Part shown: piece after piece, positions 23,846 to 34,581 of the stretch
Layout of the letters: every line of letters starts with the position of its first letter
How positions within the stretch are numbered: the first letter of the stretch is position 1
Origin: Acidimicrobiia bacterium
GTDB lineage: Bacteria > Actinomycetota > Acidimicrobiia > Spongiisociales > JAHEDJ01
Direction: 5' to 3'
DNA: 64,000 nucleotides
NCBI GenBank assembly: GCA_035471805.1
Contig: DATIPS010000029.1
Coordinates: 1-64,000, forward strand
The notes under the pieces: generated by a model
Told to the model about the DNA's origin: nothing
The model's database searches: none
What the model saw: only the letters and a program-made list of their open reading frames with translations
Position numbers and translations under genes: made by a program

Positions 23846-24313
23846 CTAGTCGAGGAGCTCTACCTCGTCGCCACGGCGGATCGTTCCGCCAATGATCACC
23901 TTTGCGTAGACCCGGCTCCATCCGGGATGGGCTGCCTGACCGATGCGAGCGGACCTCCCGTCTGAAAAGGAGCCGGAGATCTTCGAGCACGGGCTGGTGT
24001 AGCTGGTGACCTGGGCCACCGTCGATCCGATGCGAAGCCGAACGGGCGGGCTCACGAGGTCCCAATCGAGCCCCGTGATGGTCAAGTTCTCACCTGCAGT
24101 ACCGGCAGAGATTGGATGACCCTCGGCCTGCAGGGCTTCGATGACTTCGAGCGAAAAGAGGCAGAGAGCCCGGTCGAACCCGCCGTGATGTTCCTTGTCG
24201 GACTGGTCATCACCAACGATCCCGTTGATGTCGATGAGAGCCTCTGAGACCGGGAGCTTCGGCACACCCCCGTCGCTCGCGTTGATCTGGAACACAGTTG
24301 CCATCGCCAACAC
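23846..24313 (-). CDS. MOSC-domain protein
   Basis: Protein of 155 aa consisting of a MOSC domain. Conserved parts are the early GGVPKLPV, HHGGFDRALCLFS, GENLTITGLDW and the signature Cys in TSYTSPCSKI. MOSC proteins bind sulfur via this Cys and serve in molybdenum cofactor sulfuration or as YiiM/MARC-type molybdoenzymes; stand-alone members like this resemble YiiM. Start is GTG 24313 after GGAGGT; TTG 24310 or ATG 24304 also fit the same site. A 51-bp repeat lies just upstream of the gene. Confidence 0.85.
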   Translation of the reverse strand: MLAMATVFQINASDGGVPKLPVSEALIDINGIVGDDQSDKEHHGGFDRALCLFSLEVIEALQAEGHPISAGTAGENLTITGLDWDLVSPPVRLRIGSTVAQVTSYTSPCSKISGSFSDGRSARIGQAAHPGWSRVYAKVIIGGTIRRGDEVELLD

Positions 24314-24335
24314 GATACCTCCACGATCGAACTGA

Positions 24336-24386
24336 TTTTCTCAGCAATACTGTTGCGCGTGGAGAACCACAGTATTGCGGAGAAAC
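24336..24386 (-). repeat. 51-bp palindromic interspersed repeat, copy 3 (inverted)
   Basis: Left arm TTTTCTCAGCAATACTG at 24336-24352, 17-nt loop, right arm from 24370 (CAGTATTGCGGAGAAA). Here the loop reads TTGCGCGTGG, the reverse complement of the loop in all other copies, so this one is inserted in the opposite orientation. One stem mismatch. It lies between the start of the MOSC gene and the stop of the SpoU gene, both on the minus strand. Confidence 0.88.
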
Positions 24387-24399
24387 CCGGAGGAGTCCT

Positions 24400-25014
24400 C
24401 TAGCGGCCGAAGCGGTGCTGCAGGATCCAGTGGTGCATCGCTATCCCGGAAGCCACGCCCGCATTGATCGACCGCGTCGAACCGTACTGTGCGATCGAAC
24501 AGACGAACGCGGCCGCTGCCCGAGCCTCCTCGGACAGACCCGGCCCTTCCTGACCGAAGAGCAGCGCACACCGGCTCGGAAGCCGGGTGGTCTCGATGGG
24601 AACCGCACCGGGCAAGTTGTCGATGCCCACGATCGGCATTTCGGCATTCGCCGCCCAATCCACGAAATCGTGAACCGTCGGATGGTGGTGAACGTGCTGG
24701 TAGCGGTCGGTGACCATCGCCCCCCGCCTATTCCACTTTCGCTTGCCGACGATGTGCACTGCTTCGGCCATGAAGGCGTTCGCATTGCGCACGACCGAGC
24801 CGATGTTGAAATCGTGTTCCCAGTTCTCGACCGCCACATGAAACGGGTGACGACGGCCGTCGAGGTCGGCCATGATCGATTCGTGTCGCCAGTAGCGATA
24901 TTCGTCGACGACATTGCGCCGATCGCCGGCCTCGAGAAGCTCCGGATCGAGTCGGGGATCCTCGGGCCACGGCCGCGGGTGCGGCCCGACGCCTACCTCA
25001 CGTTCACGATCCAT
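24400..25014 (-). CDS. SpoU/TrmH-family RNA 2'-O-methyltransferase
   Basis: SPOUT-fold methyltransferase of 204 aa that transfers a methyl group from SAM to a ribose 2'-OH in tRNA or rRNA. Motif 1 is NWEHDFNIGSVVRNANAF, motif 2 LLFGQEGPGLS, motif 3 STRSINAGVASGIAM, which forms the trefoil-knot SAM site. It lacks a long N-terminal RNA-binding domain, so it resembles TrmH-type tRNA enzymes; the target nucleotide is not decidable. Its start overlaps the upstream membrane-protein gene by 11 bp, suggesting an operon. Confidence 0.9.
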   Translation of the reverse strand: MDREREVGVGPHPRPWPEDPRLDPELLEAGDRRNVVDEYRYWRHESIMADLDGRRHPFHVAVENWEHDFNIGSVVRNANAFMAEAVHIVGKRKWNRRGAMVTDRYQHVHHHPTVHDFVDWAANAEMPIVGIDNLPGAVPIETTRLPSRCALLFGQEGPGLSEEARAAAAFVCSIAQYGSTRSINAGVASGIAMHHWILQHRFGR

Positions 25015-25264
25015 CGACGCCGGCGCTACCGGAACCGATGATCACGCCGATGAACCCTCCCCCGAACACGCCGGTGAGGATCCCGGGCCAGATGGCCGTT
25101 GAGAAAGCTCTGCCGAGGTCCGAATCGGTGAAAATCCACATCGCGAGCACTATCAAGATGATCGAGAGCGGCGTCCCCACGGCAATGCTCGTGGCGATGG
25201 CGCGCCCGAACTTCTTCTCGTCTACTTCTCCGTGCTTTTGAGGTGGATGGGCCTCGACGGTCAT
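25004..25264 (-). CDS. Small two-helix membrane protein
   Basis: Protein of 86 aa with a hydrophilic N-terminus (VEAHPPQKHGEVDEKKFG), two hydrophobic helices (about residues 22-46 and 57-77) and a Gly/Ser-rich end. The second helix is Gly-rich (GILTGVFGGGFIGVIIGSG), suggesting tight packing or oligomerisation. It overlaps the SpoU gene by 11 bp. Function unknown. Confidence 0.7.
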   Translation of the reverse strand: MTVEAHPPQKHGEVDEKKFGRAIATSIAVGTPLSIILIVLAMWIFTDSDLGRAFSTAIWPGILTGVFGGGFIGVIIGSGSAGVDGS

Positions 25265-25373
25265 CTGTGGTCTCCCCGGTTCACTTGGCCGATAGCGTAG
25301 CGTCGATGCCGGGGAGACGGCAGGGCGAGAGGTGCCGACGGAGTGCCGGGCCTTCCGCGCCTAGGATTTGCAG

Positions 25374-25464
25374 GACTCATCCGGAGCGATGGAGGGACCA
25401 GGCCCTGTGAGAGCGCGGCAACCGGCCCGCGGGGATTCGGTGCCAGCGCCTGAGCGATGAAGTG
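25374..25464 (+). promoter_or_regulatory. SAM-I (S-box) riboswitch upstream of metH
   Basis: The RNA reads ACTCATC (P1 5' strand) - GGAGCGATGGAGGGACCAG - GCCCTGTGAGAGCGCGGCAA - CC, then GGTGCC and GCGCCTGAGCGATGAAGT (P1 3' strand). It keeps the key S-box elements: GATGGAGGGAC, GGCCC-tgTGA, GCGGCAACC and GGTGCCA. SAM binding should close P1 and lower metH expression. The P1 3' strand GATGA (25456-25460) can pair instead with TCATC at 25478-25482, a possible switch element just before the metH ribosome binding site. No intrinsic terminator is obvious, so control may be at translation. Confidence 0.9.
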
Positions 25465-25507
25465 GCGGACGGTCCCCTCATCACGACCGACAGACATCAG
25501 GAACGCA

Positions 25508-28500
25508 GTGAGCGACTACGTACGGGCAGCCGAATCCAGAGTCGTGGTCTACGACGGTGCAATGGGCACCTCGATCCAACAGGCCGGTCTCGGTGAGGAC
25601 GACTTCGGAGGCGCCGACCTCGAAGGCTGCAACGAGCTGCTCAACGTGACGCGACCCGACCTGATTCGCCGGATCCATGCCTCATTCCTGGATGTCGGCG
25701 TCGATGTCGTCGAGACGAACAGCTTCGGCGGGTTCTCCGTGCCGCTCGCCGAGTACCGGCTCGAGCATCGCGTTCATGAGCTCAACCTGGCGGCAGCACG
25801 ACTGGCCCGAGAGGTCGCAGACGACTATTCGACCGGAGATCGCAAACGCTGGGTTGCCGGGTCGATCGGACCCGGGACGAAGTTCCCGACCCTCGGCCAG
25901 ATCAGGTTCGCGGATCTCAGGGATGCCTATGAAGAGCAAGCCGCAGCTCTCCTCGAGGGCGGAGTGGACCTCTTCATCATCGAAACCCAGTTCGACCTGC
26001 TCGGCCTGAAAGCCGCCATGATCGGAGCAAGGCGTGCAATGCGATCGGCCGGGAGAGAGGTCCCGGTCCAGGCGCAGGTGACCATCGAAGCGACCGGCCG
26101 AATGCTGCCCGGCACGGAAATCGGCGCGGCACTCGCCGCTGTCGATCCTCTGCGCCCTGATGTGTTCGGCCTGAACTGCGCGACCGGCCCGGCAGAGATG
26201 GCGGAGCACATCCGCTATCTGTCGGAACGGGCGCGTATGCCGATAGCGGTCATCCCGAACGCAGGGCTTCCGGAGGTGATCGAGGGTGCCATGTGCTACA
26301 ACCTCTCGCCGGAGGAGCTGGCCGATCACCACGTCCGGTTCATCACCGAGTTCGGTGTCTCGGTGGTCGGGGGATGCTGCGGCACGACGCCCGAGCATCT
26401 GCACAGGGTCGTCGAGGCAGTGTCCGACCTGGACGTCCTCCCCCGTGCGGCCCGGCACGAACCCGGCGCCGCCTCGACATACTCGTTCGCTCCCTTTCGC
26501 CAGGAGACATCGTTTCTGATCATCGGGGAGCGGACCAACGCCAACGGATCGAAGAAGTTCAGGGAAGCGCTGCTCGCCGAAGACTGGGACGGCTGCGTGC
26601 AGATGGGAAAGGAACAGGTCAAGGAGGGCGCCCATCTCGTCGACCTCTGCGTCGACTACGTCGGTCGCGATGGGAGAGCCGACATGGACCGGCTGGCCTC
26701 GCGCTTTGCCACCGAGGTGAGTGTGCCGCTGGTACTGGATTCCACCGAACCGGAGGTGATGGAGGCAGGCCTTCAACGGATCGGTGGAAGGGCGGTTCTC
26801 AACTCTGCCAACCTCGAGGACGGCGATCATCCGAATTCGCGGTTCGACAGGGTGATGTCGCTGGCTCGGGACTACGGAGCTGCCGTCGTCTGTCTGCTCA
26901 TCGATGAGAACGGGCAGGCGCGAGACGTCGAATGGAAGATGCGCGTCGCCCACCGCATCCACCGCCTCGCCGTCGAACGCTACGGGCTCGAACCGGGCGA
27001 TCTGATCTTCGACCCGCTCACGTTTCCGCTGACAACGGGCGACGACGCCCTGCGCCGCGACGCGATTGCAACGCTCGAGGCAGTCAGGCGAATCAAAGTC
27101 GAACTGCCCGGAACCTTCACCAGCCTCGGCATTTCCAACGTTTCGTTTGGATTGAAGCTGGCGGCCCGCCACGTACTCAACTCGGTGTTCCTCCATGAGG
27201 CACTCGGGGCCGGGCTGGACGGCGCCATCCTCCATGCGGCCCGGGTGATACCTCTCCACAGGATCCCGGAGGATCGGAGGGAAGCCGCCCTGGATCTCGT
27301 CTACGACCGCCGGCGCGCCGGATACGATCCGCTCGAGCGCGTCCTGGAGCTTTTCGCCGACGCGACCACGACGGCAGTCGAGAAGGAGGACCGCAGCGAA
27401 TGGCCGATCGAGCGACGCCTCGAATACCGCATCGTCGAAGGCGACCGCGACGGACTCACCGATGACCTGGATACGGCGCTCCGGAGCCGTAGTGCAGTGG
27501 ACATCATCAACAACATCCTCCTGGCCGGCATGAAGACTGTGGGTGAGCTGTTCGCGACAGGTGATATGCAGCTGCCCTTCGTGCTGCAATCGGCAGAGAC
27601 TATGAAGGCGTCGGTCGGCTATCTGGAACCGCACATCGACGCAACCGGTCACACCGGCCGGGGGTCGATCGTCCTGGCAACGGTCAAGGGTGACGTGCAC
27701 GACATCGGGAAGAACCTCGTCGACATCATCCTCACCAACAACGGGTACACGGTCCACAATCTCGGCATCAAGGTCGGCATCGCCGACATGATCGACAAAG
27801 CCCTCGAAGTGAACGCCGATGCAATCGGGATGAGCGGCCTTCTCGTGAAATCGACCCTGATCATGCGAGAAAACCTGATCGAACTGCACGAACGGGGATT
27901 GGCCCACCTTCCCGTCATCTTGGGTGGCGCTGCTCTGACCAGGAGCTACGTCGAACGCGATCTCCGCCAGGCCTATCCGGGACCGCTCTTCTACGGCAAG
28001 GACGCTTTCGCCGGGCTGGCGGTCATGGAGCGGATCGCAGGAGACGAACACCTGACGGATGCCGAGTTCGGCCGCAGGCCTGAGGGGCGTCGGCTGCCCG
28101 CCAGGCAGCCGAGGAAGGATGCGGAGACGCAAGCACGGACTCGCTCGCCCGAGGTGGACGGCGACAACCACATCTTCACTCCCCCGTTCCTCGGGTCGAG
28201 AGTCGTCAAGGGAATCCCCCTTGACGAAATCGGCGAATACCTGAACGAAACCGCCCTCTTCAGAAACCAGTGGCACTTCCGCCCCGAAGCCGGTGAAGAC
28301 GACGCGGCTTTCAAGGACCGCATTCGCCCGGTGCTTCGTGAGCAGCTCGATCGGGCGAAACGCAACAACCTCCTGATTCCGCAAGTCGTGTACGGCTTCT
28401 TTGCAGTGAACTCAGACGGCAACGACCTCATCGTCTGGCAAGACGCCCGGCGGAACCGCGAGATGGCCAGGTTCTCGTTCCCACGTCAAACGAGCAGCCC

Positions 28501-28963
28501 CTTCATGTGTATCGCCGACTTCCACCGCCCGACCGACGAAGGGCTCGACTACGCGGCATTTCACATTGCAACCATCGGTGATCGAGCCTCGGTGCGAGCG
28601 GCCGAGCTGTTCGCCGCCCACCGTTATGAGGAGTACCTGTTGCTCCACGGTCTGGCCGTTGAAATGGCGGAGTCACTTGCCGAGTACTGGCACCATCGAA
28701 TCAGGACCGAGTGGGGTTTCGTCGACGAGGACGGTCCCTCTCTCACGGGGCTCTTCCGGCAGAAGTATCGCGGGGGAAGGTACTCATGGGGCTACCCGGC
28801 CTGTCCCGATCTCGAAGACAATGAAACCGTCGCCCTCCTCCTGGGAGCCGACCGAATCGGGGTCTCGGTCGGGGAAGACACCGGCTGGCAATATCAGCCC
28901 GAGCAGACCACCTCGGCCATCATCTGCCACCACCCGCAGGCGAAGTACTTCATCGCCCGCTGA
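25508..28963 (+). CDS. metH: Cobalamin-dependent methionine synthase
   Basis: Full-length MetH of 1151 aa that methylates homocysteine from methyl-tetrahydrofolate through B12. Order: homocysteine domain (about 1-310, zinc Cys at 224, 290 and 291 in GGCCGTT), pterin-binding domain (about 335-600), B12 cap helices (FVLQSAETMKASVGYLEPH), B12-binding domain with DVHDIG at 729-734, and the C-terminal AdoMet activation domain (GYPACPDLEDN). GTG 25508 is chosen, after AGGA at 25499-25502; the upstream ATG at 25457 lies inside the riboswitch P1 stem and adds an unconserved 17 residues. Confidence 0.97.
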   Translation: MSDYVRAAESRVVVYDGAMGTSIQQAGLGEDDFGGADLEGCNELLNVTRPDLIRRIHASFLDVGVDVVETNSFGGFSVPLAEYRLEHRVHELNLAAARLAREVADDYSTGDRKRWVAGSIGPGTKFPTLGQIRFADLRDAYEEQAAALLEGGVDLFIIETQFDLLGLKAAMIGARRAMRSAGREVPVQAQVTIEATGRMLPGTEIGAALAAVDPLRPDVFGLNCATGPAEMAEHIRYLSERARMPIAVIPNAGLPEVIEGAMCYNLSPEELADHHVRFITEFGVSVVGGCCGTTPEHLHRVVEAVSDLDVLPRAARHEPGAASTYSFAPFRQETSFLIIGERTNANGSKKFREALLAEDWDGCVQMGKEQVKEGAHLVDLCVDYVGRDGRADMDRLASRFATEVSVPLVLDSTEPEVMEAGLQRIGGRAVLNSANLEDGDHPNSRFDRVMSLARDYGAAVVCLLIDENGQARDVEWKMRVAHRIHRLAVERYGLEPGDLIFDPLTFPLTTGDDALRRDAIATLEAVRRIKVELPGTFTSLGISNVSFGLKLAARHVLNSVFLHEALGAGLDGAILHAARVIPLHRIPEDRREAALDLVYDRRRAGYDPLERVLELFADATTTAVEKEDRSEWPIERRLEYRIVEGDRDGLTDDLDTALRSRSAVDIINNILLAGMKTVGELFATGDMQLPFVLQSAETMKASVGYLEPHIDATGHTGRGSIVLATVKGDVHDIGKNLVDIILTNNGYTVHNLGIKVGIADMIDKALEVNADAIGMSGLLVKSTLIMRENLIELHERGLAHLPVILGGAALTRSYVERDLRQAYPGPLFYGKDAFAGLAVMERIAGDEHLTDAEFGRRPEGRRLPARQPRKDAETQARTRSPEVDGDNHIFTPPFLGSRVVKGIPLDEIGEYLNETALFRNQWHFRPEAGEDDAAFKDRIRPVLREQLDRAKRNNLLIPQVVYGFFAVNSDGNDLIVWQDARRNREMARFSFPRQTSSPFMCIADFHRPTDEGLDYAAFHIATIGDRASVRAAELFAAHRYEEYLLLHGLAVEMAESLAEYWHHRIRTEWGFVDEDGPSLTGLFRQKYRGGRYSWGYPACPDLEDNETVALLLGADRIGVSVGEDTGWQYQPEQTTSAIICHHPQAKYFIAR

Positions 28964-28975
28964 CCTGCAGGTCCG

Positions 28976-30088
28976 TCAGGCGACCCGGACCGAGAATCTG
29001 AGGAGAGCCCCGACCCCGTGGGCGTCGAGCGGACTCGACACCGAGATCTGATCGGCCTGCCCGCCTCTGCGGAGCACCTGCTCCATCGCCGCGTCGATCA
29101 CGTCACCGAGCACCACCATCCCAGAACCACAAGCCATGCAACTCTCGCCGCTCCGTTCCAGCCATCCGCAAGTGCCGCACATCACCCCCGGGCGGGTGAA
29201 CCGACCGGCAACCACGAGACGATCGACGGCACCGTTGTTCACGGCGGTCAGCACGTCCTCGAGCCCGACAACGGCCCTTCCTCCCTCCTCGGAGGTGACA
29301 CTCACCCTCGAGGCGAGGGCCTCTTCGGCTTCATACGAGGCGTCGAGCAAGAAGACATTCGCACGATCGGCGATGTCAGAGTCCGACATCGTGTGCGGGT
29401 CGATGACGAAGGAGCCGAGCAACCGAGCGCGGAGATACGGATGGAGAAACGATTCGAACCGGACCGAGGTCTCCTCGTGACCGCCGACGACCAACTTCCC
29501 GAAGCCGAGTTTGCGCTGGAGTTCGAACAACCTGTCGGCGACGTACCGGAAGTGCCGTCGATCCAAGAAGTCCGCGTGGTTTCTGGCTCCCTTCTCCTCG
29601 TATCCGGAGAACCCGCCGAAGTTACCCTTGTGCGACTCGGACTCTTCGATGAACTCGAGCAACCGCATACTCCCGCCACCGCCGCCGTATAGCCAGGCAT
29701 GCCTGCGGTCGACGACCGCCACTACAACACTGTCGCGTTGCCGTATGCTCCGCAACGGACGCAGATAGGGACGATCAGCGGCGAAAGCGACATCCCACAC
29801 CGGGGTCGACAGGGGAATGTACTCGAACAAGCCCCCGCCGTCACAAGCGAAGACGGCCGTGGCAGGCGAACGATCCACGTCGATGCGATCGGCCAGCCCG
29901 ATCACGCTGTCGAGGTCGCTGCGGAGCGACATCTGGGCATCATGATCGAGGTTCGACAAGGACCTGAGGGGTTTCAGGAGATCGCTGAGACGCGCACGAA
30001 CAGACTCGTGGAGCGGCTCGCGGTTGACATACACCGAAAGCACCGGATAGTCGGGGCTCTCGAAGCGGGAGAGGCGGTCGATGTGCAT
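28976..30088 (-). CDS. Bacterial eRF1-like protein (baeRF family)
   Basis: Protein of 370 aa resembling the bacterial archaeo-eukaryotic release-factor (baeRF) group. The middle third resembles eRF1 domain 2 (VVVAVVDRRHAWLYGGGGGS) and the last third matches the L30e-like eRF1 domain 3 with a four-Cys zinc knuckle (C304-x2-C307, C317-x2-C320). No GGQ is present where the peptidyl-tRNA hydrolysis loop belongs; there the sequence is NFGGFSGYEEKGARN. These proteins are suspected to act on stalled or damaged ribosomes, without proof in this lineage. A strong AAGGAGG site precedes the ATG. It is convergent with metH, 12 bp apart. Confidence 0.75.
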   Translation of the reverse strand: MHIDRLSRFESPDYPVLSVYVNREPLHESVRARLSDLLKPLRSLSNLDHDAQMSLRSDLDSVIGLADRIDVDRSPATAVFACDGGGLFEYIPLSTPVWDVAFAADRPYLRPLRSIRQRDSVVVAVVDRRHAWLYGGGGGSMRLLEFIEESESHKGNFGGFSGYEEKGARNHADFLDRRHFRYVADRLFELQRKLGFGKLVVGGHEETSVRFESFLHPYLRARLLGSFVIDPHTMSDSDIADRANVFLLDASYEAEEALASRVSVTSEEGGRAVVGLEDVLTAVNNGAVDRLVVAGRFTRPGVMCGTCGWLERSGESCMACGSGMVVLGDVIDAAMEQVLRRGGQADQISVSSPLDAHGVGALLRFSVRVA

Positions 30089-30148
30089 GAGCCTCCTTCG
30101 AGTTTGGGCCGGGCGCGCGCAGGCGACACGAATAGATGCGGAGCCGCG

Positions 30149-30163
30149 CGGCCCGAAGGGCCG
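30149..30163. terminator. Short hairpin downstream of metZ
   Basis: CGGCCC (30149-30154), GAA loop, GGGCCG (30158-30163). It lies 73 bp past the metZ stop in its transcription direction and could end that transcript. A larger nested inverted repeat abuts it at 30163. Confidence 0.4.
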
Positions 30164-30207
30164 GTAACCAGAGGTGTTCGAGAGATGGTCACCTCGACTT
30201 CAGGTTA
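30163..30207. promoter_or_regulatory. Nested inverted repeat upstream of the baeRF gene
   Basis: The outer arms GGTAACC (30163-30169) and GGTTACC (30201-30207) are exact reverse complements, and inside them GAGGTG (30171-30176) pairs with CACCTC (30188-30193). It could be an RNA hairpin in the metZ 3' region and baeRF leader, or a protein-binding operator. It lies 75 bp upstream of the baeRF start. No known motif is recognised. Confidence 0.4.
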
Positions 30208-30235
30208 CCCTCGTGAACCCTGGATTGGGGCCTCT

Positions 30236-31408
30236 TCAGAGCTCCAGCGCCCCGGCCAGATCTGCCTCGAGATCCAGCAGGTCCTCGAGCCCCACGGAAA
30301 GGCGCACCAGCGAATCGGAGATGCCCATCGCCTGCCGCTCCTGTGGAGTGAGCCGGGAGTGGGTGGTCGTCGCCGGGTGAGTCGACAGGCTCTTCGCGTC
30401 CCCGAGGTTGTTCGATATGTCAAACAAGCGGAGCCGGTTCATGAACCGGAAGGCTGCGGCCCGACCTCCGTCTATCTCAACAGACACCATCGACCCGCCC
30501 GCCTCCATCTGACGGCGGGCCAGGTCAGCCTGTGGATGCCCGTCGGCGGTCGGGTACAAGACGCGGCTGACCACCGGCGCCCCGTCGAGGAAAGCGGCCA
30601 GCGCGGCGGCGCTCCTGGATTGCTCGCGGACGCGGAGGTCGAGAGTCTCGAGGCTCTTCGCCACCACCCAGGCATTGAATGGACTAATCGATGGGCCGGT
30701 GTGACGCTGGAACTCCTGTAGCGGGCCATCGATGAACTCGGCCGTACCCAGAACCGCTCCGCCCAGTGTGCGACCCTGCCCGTCGAGGTGCTTGGTCGTC
30801 GAGTAGACGACGATGTCGGCACCCAGTTCGAGCGGACGCTGCAAGACCGGGGTTGCGAAGACGTTATCGACGATGACCCGCGCTCCGGCGGCGTGCGCCA
30901 GTTCGGATACAGCTGCGATATCGACGAGTTCGAGCATCGGGTTGGACGGAGTCTCGAGATACACGAACTTCGGGGAACGCTCCATCGCACGCTCCCACGA
31001 TTCGAGATCGCGACCGTCGACGAAAGTGGTCTCGATTCCCCAGCGTGCCAGCAGCCGTCCGAGTACCGCGACCGTAGACCCGAACAGTGCGCGAGAGGCG
31101 ACGATACGATCGCCGGCGCTCGCGTCGCACGCAACGGCTGCGAAGACTGCGGCCATTCCGCTGGCGGTCGCCCGGCATGCTTCGGCCCCGTCGAGTAGCC
31201 GAAGCCGCTCTTCGAATGTCGAGATCGTCGGGTTCCCGTAGCGCGTGTAGACGTAGCCCTCGGCTTCCCCGCTGAAGACCGCGGCAGCTTCCTCCGCAGA
31301 CTCATAGACGAATCCAGATGTCATGAATATGCCTTCGGCCGTCTCGCCGAAGGCCGTCCGCTCGTGCCCGCCTCGGACCTGCCGGGTCTTGGGTCTCCAG
31401 TCATCCAT
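30236..31408 (-). CDS. metZ: O-succinylhomoserine sulfhydrylase
   Basis: Cys/Met-metabolism PLP enzyme of 390 aa that makes homocysteine directly from acylated homoserine and sulfide, feeding metH. The PLP lysine is in YSTTKHLDGQGR; YTRYGNPT and GMAAVFA near the N-terminus, SNPMLELVDIA and HPATTTHSRLT near the C-terminus match the family. The HLDGQGR sequence after the lysine favours MetZ over cystathionine enzymes (HLDG + other). ATG 31408 is preferred over TTG 31417. It is divergent from the MetF-like gene, with 83 bp between. Confidence 0.9.
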   Translation of the reverse strand: MDDWRPKTRQVRGGHERTAFGETAEGIFMTSGFVYESAEEAAAVFSGEAEGYVYTRYGNPTISTFEERLRLLDGAEACRATASGMAAVFAAVACDASAGDRIVASRALFGSTVAVLGRLLARWGIETTFVDGRDLESWERAMERSPKFVYLETPSNPMLELVDIAAVSELAHAAGARVIVDNVFATPVLQRPLELGADIVVYSTTKHLDGQGRTLGGAVLGTAEFIDGPLQEFQRHTGPSISPFNAWVVAKSLETLDLRVREQSRSAAALAAFLDGAPVVSRVLYPTADGHPQADLARRQMEAGGSMVSVEIDGGRAAAFRFMNRLRLFDISNNLGDAKSLSTHPATTTHSRLTPQERQAMGISDSLVRLSVGLEDLLDLEADLAGALEL

Positions 31409-31491
31409 GAATGACAACCGTACATCGACATTGCTGCCTGTGGGTCACCGACGTAGGGTTACCTTCCCTACCCGCCGTACGCCGAGGAACC

Positions 31492-32298
31492 ATGCTGACC
31501 GCGAATCGAGACTGGACCGTGATCGTCGAGGTCAACCCGCCCGACCTTCCGGACATGTCCCACCTCCTGCTGGAGGGTGCCTGGACCCATGTGCTGGTGA
31601 CGGACAATGTCTTCGGGAAGATCCGGGTATCCCCCTATGCCTACTCCGCACGGATAACGCACGACGTACCGTCGGTTCATCCGACAGTCGTGGTTTCGAC
31701 CCGTGACCGCAACATCCTGGCCATCGAGAGCGAGGTCCGAGGAGCATTGGGGAACGGAGTCAACTCTTTCCTGGTGGTCGTGGGTGACACAATGCCTCAG
31801 GTCGATCATCTGGCCGACCATCGAGAGGTGGTGAGGCATCTCCGGGATCTCCAGGGCAGGACTCCGGCGTTCGAGGTGGGGGTGCCGACCCGCTTCAAAT
31901 CGTACGACTTCCACCGACAGGTCGATTCGGGAGCGGAGTTCTTCGTGGCAGGCCCACTTCTGGATCCCTCAACAGTCGGCGAGCAGATTGCGAAGTTGCA
32001 GATGCGAGACGGCGACCCGCCGCTGTACGTGATGGTGATTCCCCCGTTCTCGCCGGGTTGGGTGGAGCAGATGGAGTCGGTGGGGGCGATTCCCTGCAGT
32101 GATCGTCTCAAAGCAGATCTCGCAGGTCTACCTTCCGAAGACCGGAGGGCGTTTGGATGGAGCGTGGCCACGGCAACGGCCGCGGCCGCCCGGAGGGAAG
32201 GAGCGGCCGGGGTGGTGCTCATGGGTCTCCACTTCGACACAGTGATCGACGAGGCCGCCGAGGCCTGGCGAAGCGGTTCGCAACGGGACCCGGGCTGA
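31492..32298 (+). CDS. MetF-like methylenetetrahydrofolate reductase family protein
   Basis: TIM-barrel protein of 268 aa resembling methylenetetrahydrofolate reductase: FLVVVGDTMPQ at the flavin strand, RFKSYDFHRQVDSGAEFFVAGPLLDPS (compare GADFFITQ in MetF) and GVVLMGLHFDT near the end. It is shorter and more diverged than classic MetF, so it could have another C1 or flavin role. Its place beside metZ and near metH supports supply of methyl-folate for methionine. ATG 31492 has GAGG four nucleotides upstream. Confidence 0.7.
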   Translation: MLTANRDWTVIVEVNPPDLPDMSHLLLEGAWTHVLVTDNVFGKIRVSPYAYSARITHDVPSVHPTVVVSTRDRNILAIESEVRGALGNGVNSFLVVVGDTMPQVDHLADHREVVRHLRDLQGRTPAFEVGVPTRFKSYDFHRQVDSGAEFFVAGPLLDPSTVGEQIAKLQMRDGDPPLYVMVIPPFSPGWVEQMESVGAIPCSDRLKADLAGLPSEDRRAFGWSVATATAAAARREGAAGVVLMGLHFDTVIDEAAEAWRSGSQRDPG

Positions 32299-32384
32299 AC
32301 TCGCCGAACCGCCCCGGGTTCGTCGATATGCTCCGGCCGGCGGCGGTTTCGCGCATATCTCGCGAGGTCGGGTTGAATAGCGGC

Positions 32385-33821
32385 ATGCGCTTCCGGATCC
32401 CCGTATTGCTGGCTCTTTCGATCGCCGTCGCGGCATGCTCTTCGGGCGTCACTTCGACCACCGGCGGTTCGGTCGCCCCGTCGACCTCTTCAAGCAGCTC
32501 AACCACCGGCACGGCCGACACCCAGTCGGAGTCGACGTCGGCTGCCGGTACCGATCTTCTGATTACCAACTGCGATGAGCCCACCGCCGATTTCGAGCCA
32601 TTCTGCGACGCCTACAACCTGATCAGAGGGCACTTCGTGGACGATGCCGACGACGCACTGCTGGCTGCCGGTGCCCTGGAGGGGTTGGAAACGCTGGAGT
32701 CGGAAGGCACCGGCGGACCTCGCGACAGAATCACCTGCTCCGAGCCGAGTGAAGCTTTCGAGTCCTTCTGCGAGTCGCTGGTGGATGAGCTCGAGAGCGG
32801 AGATTCCAGCCTCGGCGAAGTCATCGAGGCCGCCATCGCAGGCATGGTCGCGATAGGACTCGACGACCCCTACAGCGTCTATCTCTCTCCTTCTGCGCTG
32901 GAGAACTTCAGAATCGATACCTCCGGAAGCGTTGAGGGCATCGGCGCCTTGGTCCGCGGCGAAGAGATAACCGACCCGGACGGGGAGGGCTGCTCCCTGC
33001 TATCCGATACCTGTCACATGGTCATAGTCCAGCCGCTCGACGGCAGCCCGGCGGAAGCCGCCGGCATCGAATCGGGCGACTATGTCGTTTCGGTGGACGG
33101 CGAGGGCGTCGAAGGCAAGCTTCTCGACGAGATCGTGGCCATCGTGCGAGGGCCGGCCGGGACCGAGGTGACCCTCGGCATCGAAAGGGGTGGTGAGCTG
33201 CTCGAGTTCACCGTGACCAGGGCCGCTATCACCGTGCCCAACGTTGAATTCGATGTGCTCGACTCAGGAGCTGGTTATCTCCGCCTGGTGACCTTCGCCA
33301 GCAACGCGGATGAAGCGATTCGCGAGGCGATCCGCGAGTTGCTTGCCGCCGGGGTGACCGACATCATCTTCGATCTGCGCAGCGACCCAGGCGGATCTCT
33401 GGACGCGGCCGTGAACATCGCCAGCGAGTTCCTGGAAGACGGCCTGGTTGTCGTCACCGAAGCACCGGGAGACCGGCTGGAGTATCCGGTCCAGAGCGGC
33501 GGGCTCGCAACAAGCACCGACATCGGACTGGCCGTTCTCGTCGACCGGGCCAGCGCCAGCGCGTCGGAGGTAGTTGCCGGCGTCCTCCAGGAGACGGGCC
33601 GGGCGACGATCGTTGGCGAGGTGACCTTCGGAAAGAACACGGTGCAGCAACAGTTCAACCTGGACAACGGCGGGGCTATCAAGTTGACCATCGCCCGCTG
33701 GTTGACACCCGAAGGGAAGGATCTCGGCGATGGGGTTCATCCGGACATCTTGATCGAGTTCGACACAGATGCCGAGTCGGACCCGTGGATCGACGCTGCT
33801 CTGGAAGCCCTGGGCTACTGA
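32385..33821 (+). CDS. S41-family C-terminal processing protease, lipoprotein
   Basis: CtpA-like protease of 478 aa. The signal peptide ends in a lipobox (IAVAAC, Cys at about residue 19), followed by a long Ser/Thr linker, then a PDZ domain (VQPLDGSPAEAAGIESGDYVVSVDG) and the S41 peptidase domain. The catalytic Ser is in RASASASEVVAG and the Lys in VTFGKNTVQQQ, giving the Ser-Lys dyad. It likely cleaves exported proteins at the membrane surface. ATG 32385 begins a clear signal sequence; in-frame upstream codons do not. Confidence 0.9.
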   Translation: MRFRIPVLLALSIAVAACSSGVTSTTGGSVAPSTSSSSSTTGTADTQSESTSAAGTDLLITNCDEPTADFEPFCDAYNLIRGHFVDDADDALLAAGALEGLETLESEGTGGPRDRITCSEPSEAFESFCESLVDELESGDSSLGEVIEAAIAGMVAIGLDDPYSVYLSPSALENFRIDTSGSVEGIGALVRGEEITDPDGEGCSLLSDTCHMVIVQPLDGSPAEAAGIESGDYVVSVDGEGVEGKLLDEIVAIVRGPAGTEVTLGIERGGELLEFTVTRAAITVPNVEFDVLDSGAGYLRLVTFASNADEAIREAIRELLAAGVTDIIFDLRSDPGGSLDAAVNIASEFLEDGLVVVTEAPGDRLEYPVQSGGLATSTDIGLAVLVDRASASASEVVAGVLQETGRATIVGEVTFGKNTVQQQFNLDNGGAIKLTIARWLTPEGKDLGDGVHPDILIEFDTDAESDPWIDAALEALGY

Positions 33822-33827
33822 TCCCCC

Positions 33828-33880
33828 GTTTTCTGAGCAATACCGCTAATCCCCACGCGCAACAGCATTGCCGAGAAAAC
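33828..33880 (+). repeat. 51-bp palindromic interspersed repeat, copy 4
   Basis: Left arm TTTTCTGAGCAATACCG (33829-33845), 17-nt loop CTAATCCCCACGCGCAA, right arm CAGCATTGCCGAGAAAA (33863-33879), plus one more pairing base on each side. It is the most degenerate stem of the family (four mismatches), but the loop length is kept. It starts 6 bp after the ctpA stop and is the first half of a tandem doublet with copy 5. Confidence 0.85.
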
Positions 33881-33888
33881 ACAGGGCA

Positions 33889-33940
33889 GTTTCTGAGCAA
33901 TACTGTTGATGCCCACGCGCAACAGCATTGCGGAGAAAAT
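33889..33940 (+). repeat. 51-bp palindromic interspersed repeat, copy 5
   Basis: Left arm TTTCTGAGCAATACTG to 33905, 17-nt loop TTGATGCCCACGCGCAA, right arm from 33923 (CAGCATTGCGGAGAAAA). It begins exactly 61 bp after copy 4 begins. Its last base abuts the msrA stop codon (33940-33942). The pair sits between convergent ctpA and msrA. Confidence 0.85.
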
Positions 33941-34581
33941 CAGGTCAGGCCGGTCGGGCATGCAACGCCCGTGCCACCCAACCCGCAATAGCCGCCCGGG
34001 TTCTTGCCCAGGTATTGCTGGTGATACTCCTCGGCGTAATAGAACTCACCCGCGGGAGCAATCTCCGTGGTGATCTCCCCGTGTCCGTGCGCCGTGAGTT
34101 CCGCTTGATATCGATCACGTGACCGTTTGGCGGCTTCGAGTTGCTCATCGGAGGTGGCGTAGACCGCCGAGCGGTATTGGGTCCCTACATCGTTGCCCTG
34201 CCGCATACCCTGAGTCGGGTTGTGACCTTCCCAGAACACCCCGAGCAGCCGGTCGTAGCCGACCGCCGCCGGATCGAACACGACCAGCACGACTTCCGCG
34301 TGACCGGTCCGCCCCGTGCATGTCTCCTCATAGGTGGGATTTGGGGTCGATCCGCCCGCGTAGCCCGCAGCCGTCGAGTACACCCCGTCGGTCTGCCAGA
34401 AGCCGCGTTCGGCCCCCCAGAAGCATCCCATGCCGAACACGGCGGTTTCCAGCCCGTCCGGAAACGGAGGAACGATCCGGTTCCCGTTCACGTAGTGGGT
34501 CTCCGGCACACGGATCGGCTCAGAACGACCCGGAAGAGAGTTCTCGTTGTTCGGTGTTTCTTCGCGCCGGAACCAGGCCAC
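33940..34581 (-). CDS. msrA: Peptide methionine-S-sulfoxide reductase
   Basis: MsrA of 213 aa, which repairs the S-epimer of methionine sulfoxide in proteins. The catalytic Cys53 is in [33 protein letters not shown] and the C-terminal [15 protein letters not shown] carry substrate and resolving-Cys positions (two further Cys near the end). It has an N-terminal extension of about 30 residues, with no signal peptide, so it is cytosolic. The stop codon touches repeat copy 5. Confidence 0.96.

Follow-up and report, generated by a model that had tools for sequence, protein, structure and literature searches.

What does a release-factor homologue do, and does its place between metH and metZ mean anything? 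Such a gene lies in the window (the whole stretch of 64,000 nucleotides analysed here), and the original prediction took its product for a baeRF, of a group proposed to act in ribosome rescue, and raised a link to methionine or SAM metabolism that may be coincidental.

A baeRF family 10 protein closest to Balon

The identification as a baeRF holds, with the protein scoring 42.4 bits against baeRF_family10 (PF18854; curated cut-off 27.1), and so does its position, both flanking genes scoring over their cut-offs (TIGR02082 and TIGR01325; Table 1). The genome, of 2.85 Mb, yielded no further copy; a weak PF18854 match at G000:C7 (15.1 bits) turned out to be an ORF resembling an alpha/beta-hydrolase by its translation and was left uncounted. 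Comparison of the window with the nearest genome of its genus gave a dN/dS of 0.11 (0.048/0.422), and comparison with three others 0.14-0.18, at dS values of 1.5-1.9 that are near saturation; within the genus the gene is under purifying selection.

Table 1. Features of the locus, in coordinates of the window.
Feature	Position	Strand	Basis or remark
metH	25457-28963	+	TIGR02082 over cut-off
baeRF family 10 / Balon-like protein, 370 aa	28976..30088	-	ORF with ATG start; PF18854; predicted model and structure matches
C-terminal domain, residues 263-366	28991..29302	-	eRF1_3 match below cut-off; aligned to Balon and aRF1 chains
Four-Cys ribbon, residues 304-320 (C304, C307, C317, C320)	29129..29179	-	Alignments; putative zinc binding
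Middle domain, residues 107-243	29360..29770	-	PF18854 match
Loop at GGQ position, residues 154-172, KGNFGGFSGYEEKGARNHA	29573..29629	-	GG retained, Gln absent; alignments
N-terminal domain, residues 1-106	29771..30088	-	Boundary set at start of Pfam match
metZ-baeRF gap, 147 bp, with inverted repeat GAGGTG...CACCTC at 30171-30195	30089..30235	-	
metZ	30236-31417	-	TIGR01325 over cut-off; upstream of baeRF, same strand

Structure prediction, proposed earlier as a check, bears out the eRF1-type fold: the AlphaFold2 model, a free monomer built from 30 sequences, is a three-domain eRF1-type protein (pLDDT 88.8, pTM 0.80) whose pLDDT falls below 50 nowhere except in the loop at the GGQ position (residues 152-160). 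When the model was compared with solved structures by VIA-align Balon chains took the first six places (Z 22.9-29.5; 334-354 residues aligned with an rmsd of 3.3-4.4), followed by aRF1 4af1 (Z 18.7, rmsd 10.5 over 348 residues) and then the eRF1s. Since full-length aRF1 and eRF1 chains fit the model with an rmsd of about 9-16, as against these 3.3-4.4 for Balon, the modelled domain placement is Balon-like. A Foldseek search of the PDB placed Balon at ranks 1, 2, 4, 5, 6 and 8, with aRF1 third. The structural alignment to Balon covers model residues 1-365, in which residues 1-106 would hold the place of the decoding-centre domain of Balon and aeRF1.

Sequence profiles point the same way. A profile of 25 relatives searched against PDB sequences ranked the Balon MSMEG_1130 highest (1.2e-19, covering positions 8-362 of the 365 in the profile), with Rv2629 Balon at 2e-11 and aRF1 4af1 at 6.3e-11, and up to E 1 gave no match to the type protein, P. 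urativorans Balon. When the wider A6 profile of the family was used, the order was MSMEG_1130 (7.3e-50), aRF1 (3.1e-30) and Rv2629 (1.2e-22), and P. urativorans Balon appeared at 2.8e-15, after these three and several aRF1/eRF1 chains. The NCBI equivalog models for Balon-type factors (Rv2629, MSMEG_1130 and AOC03_06830) gave the window protein 45.8, 39.8 and 16.8 bits, far under their cut-offs of 320, 480 and 330, and by that standard it is therefore no member. There is also profile kinship to acVLRF1 (PF18859 / NF041024) for 17 and 13 of 35 family rows, the window protein itself giving no listed match.

Like the Balons, the window protein combines a predicted three-domain aeRF1 fold in Balon-like arrangement with the absence of NIKS, which occurs nowhere in its translated sequence, and of GGQ at its functional place. 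Classical aRF1 and eRF1 carry both a middle-domain GGQ and NIKS; with 4af1 the window protein shares the domain order, and the 4af1 C domain also has Cys, but the two motifs are missing here and the domains are placed differently. The same two absences set Balon apart from aeRF1 in a 2026 archaeal-factor paper (PMC13324472). The ribosome-rescue frame of the original prediction is thus outdated, the closest solved structures being Balon hibernation factors in the ribosomal A site (PMC10901736), and in that study A-site binding of MSMEG_1130 and Rv2629 is an experimental observation.

The loop at the GGQ position

The middle domain was rightly said to have no GGQ: the loop there, KGNFGGFSGYEE, contains GGFSG, with the GG present and no Gln, where aRF1 has GGQ. 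One GGQ string does occur elsewhere in the protein, in the C domain around residues 342-344; relatives differ in its third letter, and it is not at the catalytic position. What the original prediction missed is that the absent GGQ is not a decayed loop, and that the GG is retained within the most conserved stretch of the protein's clade. Among 80 family rows whose retrieval did not use the motif, 22 have GGW[SAE]Q or near, 28 have GG[FW]xG (the window included; one row has AG) and 30 have other loops; rows L051-L079, which were retrieved with the motif N[YF]GGF[SA]GY and are biased by it, were excluded from these counts and from the entropies below. The glycines of the GGxxG class are true by construction, as the class is defined by its motif, and the independent fact is that in a whole-protein search the main copy fell inside it, Gln-free, in 24/24 baeRF genomes of the taxonomic order (baeRF being present in 24 of the 59 genomes searched, the window's own included). 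A second, divergent copy in G006, one of these 24 genomes (L050:8402-9373), lies on a long branch and has the loop RAGWFALDE, which is not GGxxG.

In 19 thinned rows of the GGxxG clade G159, G162 and E165 are each kept 19/19, and among 352 stretches of 12 columns the one beginning at residue 154 shows the strongest conservation (entropy 1.02). The mean entropy of the loop is 1.24 in GGxxG rows versus 1.78 elsewhere in the protein, the same pattern as in the Gln-bearing group (0.97 versus 1.99), whereas in the remaining group, which pools several clades and thereby raises the value, the loop varies more than the remaining columns do (2.82 versus 2.28). The clade thus lacks the glutamine without any decay of its loop. 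This strict GG[FW]xGxxE loop also separates the clade from Balon, where the loop is variable, and from baeRF family 10 as described, where the loop glutamine is well conserved (PMC6514570). The four Cys, by contrast, are common in family 10.

In a maximum-likelihood tree computed with the loop columns left out, a branch supported at 100/99 set the 34 GGxxG rows, some of them retrieved with the motif, apart from all others; the long-branch rows L050, L180 and Rv2629 had been dropped from this tree. Before the trees were built we removed identical rows (113 to 99), the short L182 and L183, L181, and 13 near-duplicates chosen by judgement. The window protein thus belongs to a well-supported subgroup of its own, marked by a strictly conserved loop. 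Among 29 relatives that have a named public record, 23 bear the title Acidimicrobiia, Actinomycetes, Actinobacteria or Actinomycetota, four 'Acidobacteria' and two just 'bacterium'; 15 motif matches in viral_contigs included no viral relative. The four records titled 'Acidobacteria bacterium' (L058, L067, L068 and L070) have a gene order equal to that of Acidimicrobiia contigs, and their titles may be wrong. The family and the hibernation role of its relatives are known already; of a GGxxG clade with a zinc ribbon that forms a loop class of its own we met no account in the open-licence PMC literature, where the motif itself is not searchable.

So constrained a loop raises the main rival to a Balon-like factor, namely a peptidyl-tRNA hydrolase (a rescue or release factor) with a Gln-free loop, in which the GG turn would bring a backbone amide into the peptidyl-transferase centre, like that of GGQ factors. 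Classical factors are not known to depend strictly on the Gln side chain of GGQ, and conservation peaks in the loop here just as it does in the Gln-bearing group. Burroughs and Aravind see family 10 as possible hydrolases (PMC6514570). However, the Gln by which presumed active members are recognised (22/80 rows) is missing in all 24 main copies of the order, the predicted structure is nearer Balon than aRF1, and SmpB is found in 57/59 relatives (45/45 of the near-complete ones), so that baeRF is not needed to fill a rescue gap. We therefore regard a Gln-free hydrolase as rather unlikely.

A four-cysteine ribbon in the C-terminal domain

The earlier description of an eRF1 domain-3-like region with a four-Cys zinc knuckle stands as to the cysteines, which are invariant in 25/25 aligned sequences and intact in 43/45 GGxxG rows (a count that includes rows L051-L079); the domain match itself is sub-threshold (eRF1_3, 19 bits against a cut-off of 25.8), and the ribbon probably binds zinc. 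It occupies a stretch aligned to the Balon C domain, on which the MSMEG_1130 Balon has no cysteines. Burroughs and Aravind suggested that a two-strand insert of baeRFs at the ribbon's site is a degenerate zinc ribbon (PMC6514570), and Helena-Bueno et al. described EF-Tu, in its GDP form, as bound by a hairpin insertion in the Balon C domain (PMC10901736). We infer that the baeRF insert and the EF-Tu hairpin occupy the same place, and that in the GGxxG clade the ribbon would contact EF-Tu.

Gene neighbourhood

The arrangement metH> <baeRF <metZ is found in 5/5 genomes of the window's genus and in none of the 19 other baeRF-bearing genomes of the order, where neither metH nor metZ was detected near baeRF (fetched stretches of 3 to 18.5 kb, some ended by the contig; tblastn, E 1e-8). 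Moreover, metH and metZ adjoin each other, with no baeRF, in G010 and G030, which are of other genera, and in G041 metZ adjoins a metH fragment, again with no baeRF. That baeRF acts in, or is controlled by, methionine or SAM metabolism could be argued from its place downstream of metZ on the same strand at a distance of 147 bp, from the gene order kept throughout the genus, and from a SAM riboswitch on metH (RF00162, 51.4 bits; 25374-25463, + strand). This riboswitch, however, is on the strand opposite to baeRF, and a search of 24000-34000 against Rfam (E up to 0.1) gave no further RNA family. From the neighbourhood comparison and the riboswitch position we rejected such a coupling, which is very improbable; the methionine/SAM link of the original prediction is unsupported, and the conservation of gene order across relatives, proposed there as a check, is seen only within the window's genus.

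Several other features of this region were observed. The riboswitch overlaps the first listed ATG of metH (25457), so the true start is probably further downstream. The arms of the inverted repeat in the metZ-baeRF gap are identical in 5/5 genus genomes, and it could be an operator or a hairpin; the interval 28900-31600 has no terminator-like site and a single promoter-like one, which lies on the opposite strand. Beside metZ lies a divergent MTHFR-like protein (31411-32298, + strand; 19.5 bits, Pfam cut-off 24) that had no PDB sequence match at E 0.01 and is possibly a non-canonical methylenetetrahydrofolate reductase.

Elsewhere in the order, 15/19 non-genus genomes have a MobA-like NTP transferase gene (PF12804) downstream of baeRF and on its strand. 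In six of the 15 the two alignments are 5-131 bp apart (the MobA match being weak, at 37-41% identity, in three of these six), and in nine XdhC or CoxE + XdhC stand between. Cox-type genes adjoin baeRF in 8/19, typically in the transcription order CoxL-CoxM-CoxD-(M15 peptidase)-baeRF-CoxE-XdhC-MobA-DUF4332. In the window's genus the run M15 peptidase - XdhC - MobA - DUF4332 is present without baeRF in G000, G003 and G004, the three of the five genomes in which that place was compared, and in L032, of another genus, baeRF sits between M15 peptidase and XdhC. From this empty-site picture it appears that baeRF moved away from the XdhC/MobA locus in the window's genus, a direction inferred because the MobA arrangement is spread more widely. 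The placement beside methionine genes looks accidental, and we read it as a relocation without functional meaning.

These neighbours suggest in turn that the factor might serve the production of molybdenum hydroxylases (MobA-like transferase, XdhC and cox genes), for instance by holding up the synthesis of a subunit until its cofactor is available. Although the MobA-like and cox-type associations above favour such a role, the genus has its baeRF elsewhere while MobA and XdhC stayed (3/3 genomes examined). Furthermore, a scan elsewhere in the phylum, covering 46 same-strand neighbours of 71 listed and mostly outside the GGxxG clade (L128-L187), was led by the ROK family (11/46), with ArsA-HSP20 at 4/46, and in the best 25 of its 32 families there was neither a molybdenum-enzyme family nor HPF. 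We consider a molybdenum role improbable.

The cox-type runs that enclose baeRF (CoxL with AYRGAGR, CoxM, CoxD, CoxE, XdhC and MobA) occur in several genera, as at L040:2341-12269 and in L033 and L038. All six CoxL sequences examined carry AYRGAGR, which we take to be the form II motif and not that of the CO-oxidising form I, and this weakened another candidate, a trace-gas persistence operon of hibernation factor and CO dehydrogenase.

Proposed function and meaning

Taken together, we consider it somewhat probable that the window protein is a Balon-like ribosome hibernation factor acting by A-site occupancy, of the baeRF-10 branch and with its zinc ribbon kept. We counted for this the predicted structure, the absence of NIKS and of a middle-domain GGQ, the solved Balon relatives, and the presence in the same genome of an HPF/RaiA-domain protein and of SmpB, a trans-translation protein. 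Upon starvation or stress the factor would enter an A site that is vacant or stalled, needing no stop codon, with its N domain at the decoding centre and its C domain touching EF-Tu(GDP) through the zinc-stabilised hairpin. The middle domain would bring the GG[FW]xGxxE loop to the peptidyl-transferase centre, and this loop, lacking Gln, might hold the peptidyl-tRNA there and not hydrolyse it. We counted against a Balon-like factor the strong constraint on the loop, suggesting a specific act at the peptidyl-transferase centre; the distance to the NCBI models, the P. urativorans Balon missed by the first profile, and a domain placement taken from a predicted free monomer; the identified neighbours, which are not classical stress genes; and the singling out of family 10 as possibly catalytic (PMC6514570).

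A broader proposal, which we put forward tentatively as a possibility short of probable, is that the GGxxG clade represents a third functional state of the bacterial eRF1 superfamily, neither a Gln-bearing hydrolase nor a loop-decayed Balon. Its strict GG[FW]xGxxE loop would perform a specific act at the peptidyl-transferase centre (peptidyl-tRNA locking or Gln-free hydrolysis), its zinc ribbon would possibly be a zinc- or redox-sensitive EF-Tu contact, and it would be co-encoded with molybdenum-enzyme maturation genes in most of the order.

Besides correcting a tempting methionine link as wrong, these observations present one family with three loop states (Gln-bearing, Gln-free but strictly kept, and variable), which offers a testable bridge between release and hibernation factors. 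Comparing the three on ribosomes would reveal how a termination enzyme turns into a ribosome-silencing protein, and would also tell whether zinc modulates the contact with EF-Tu.
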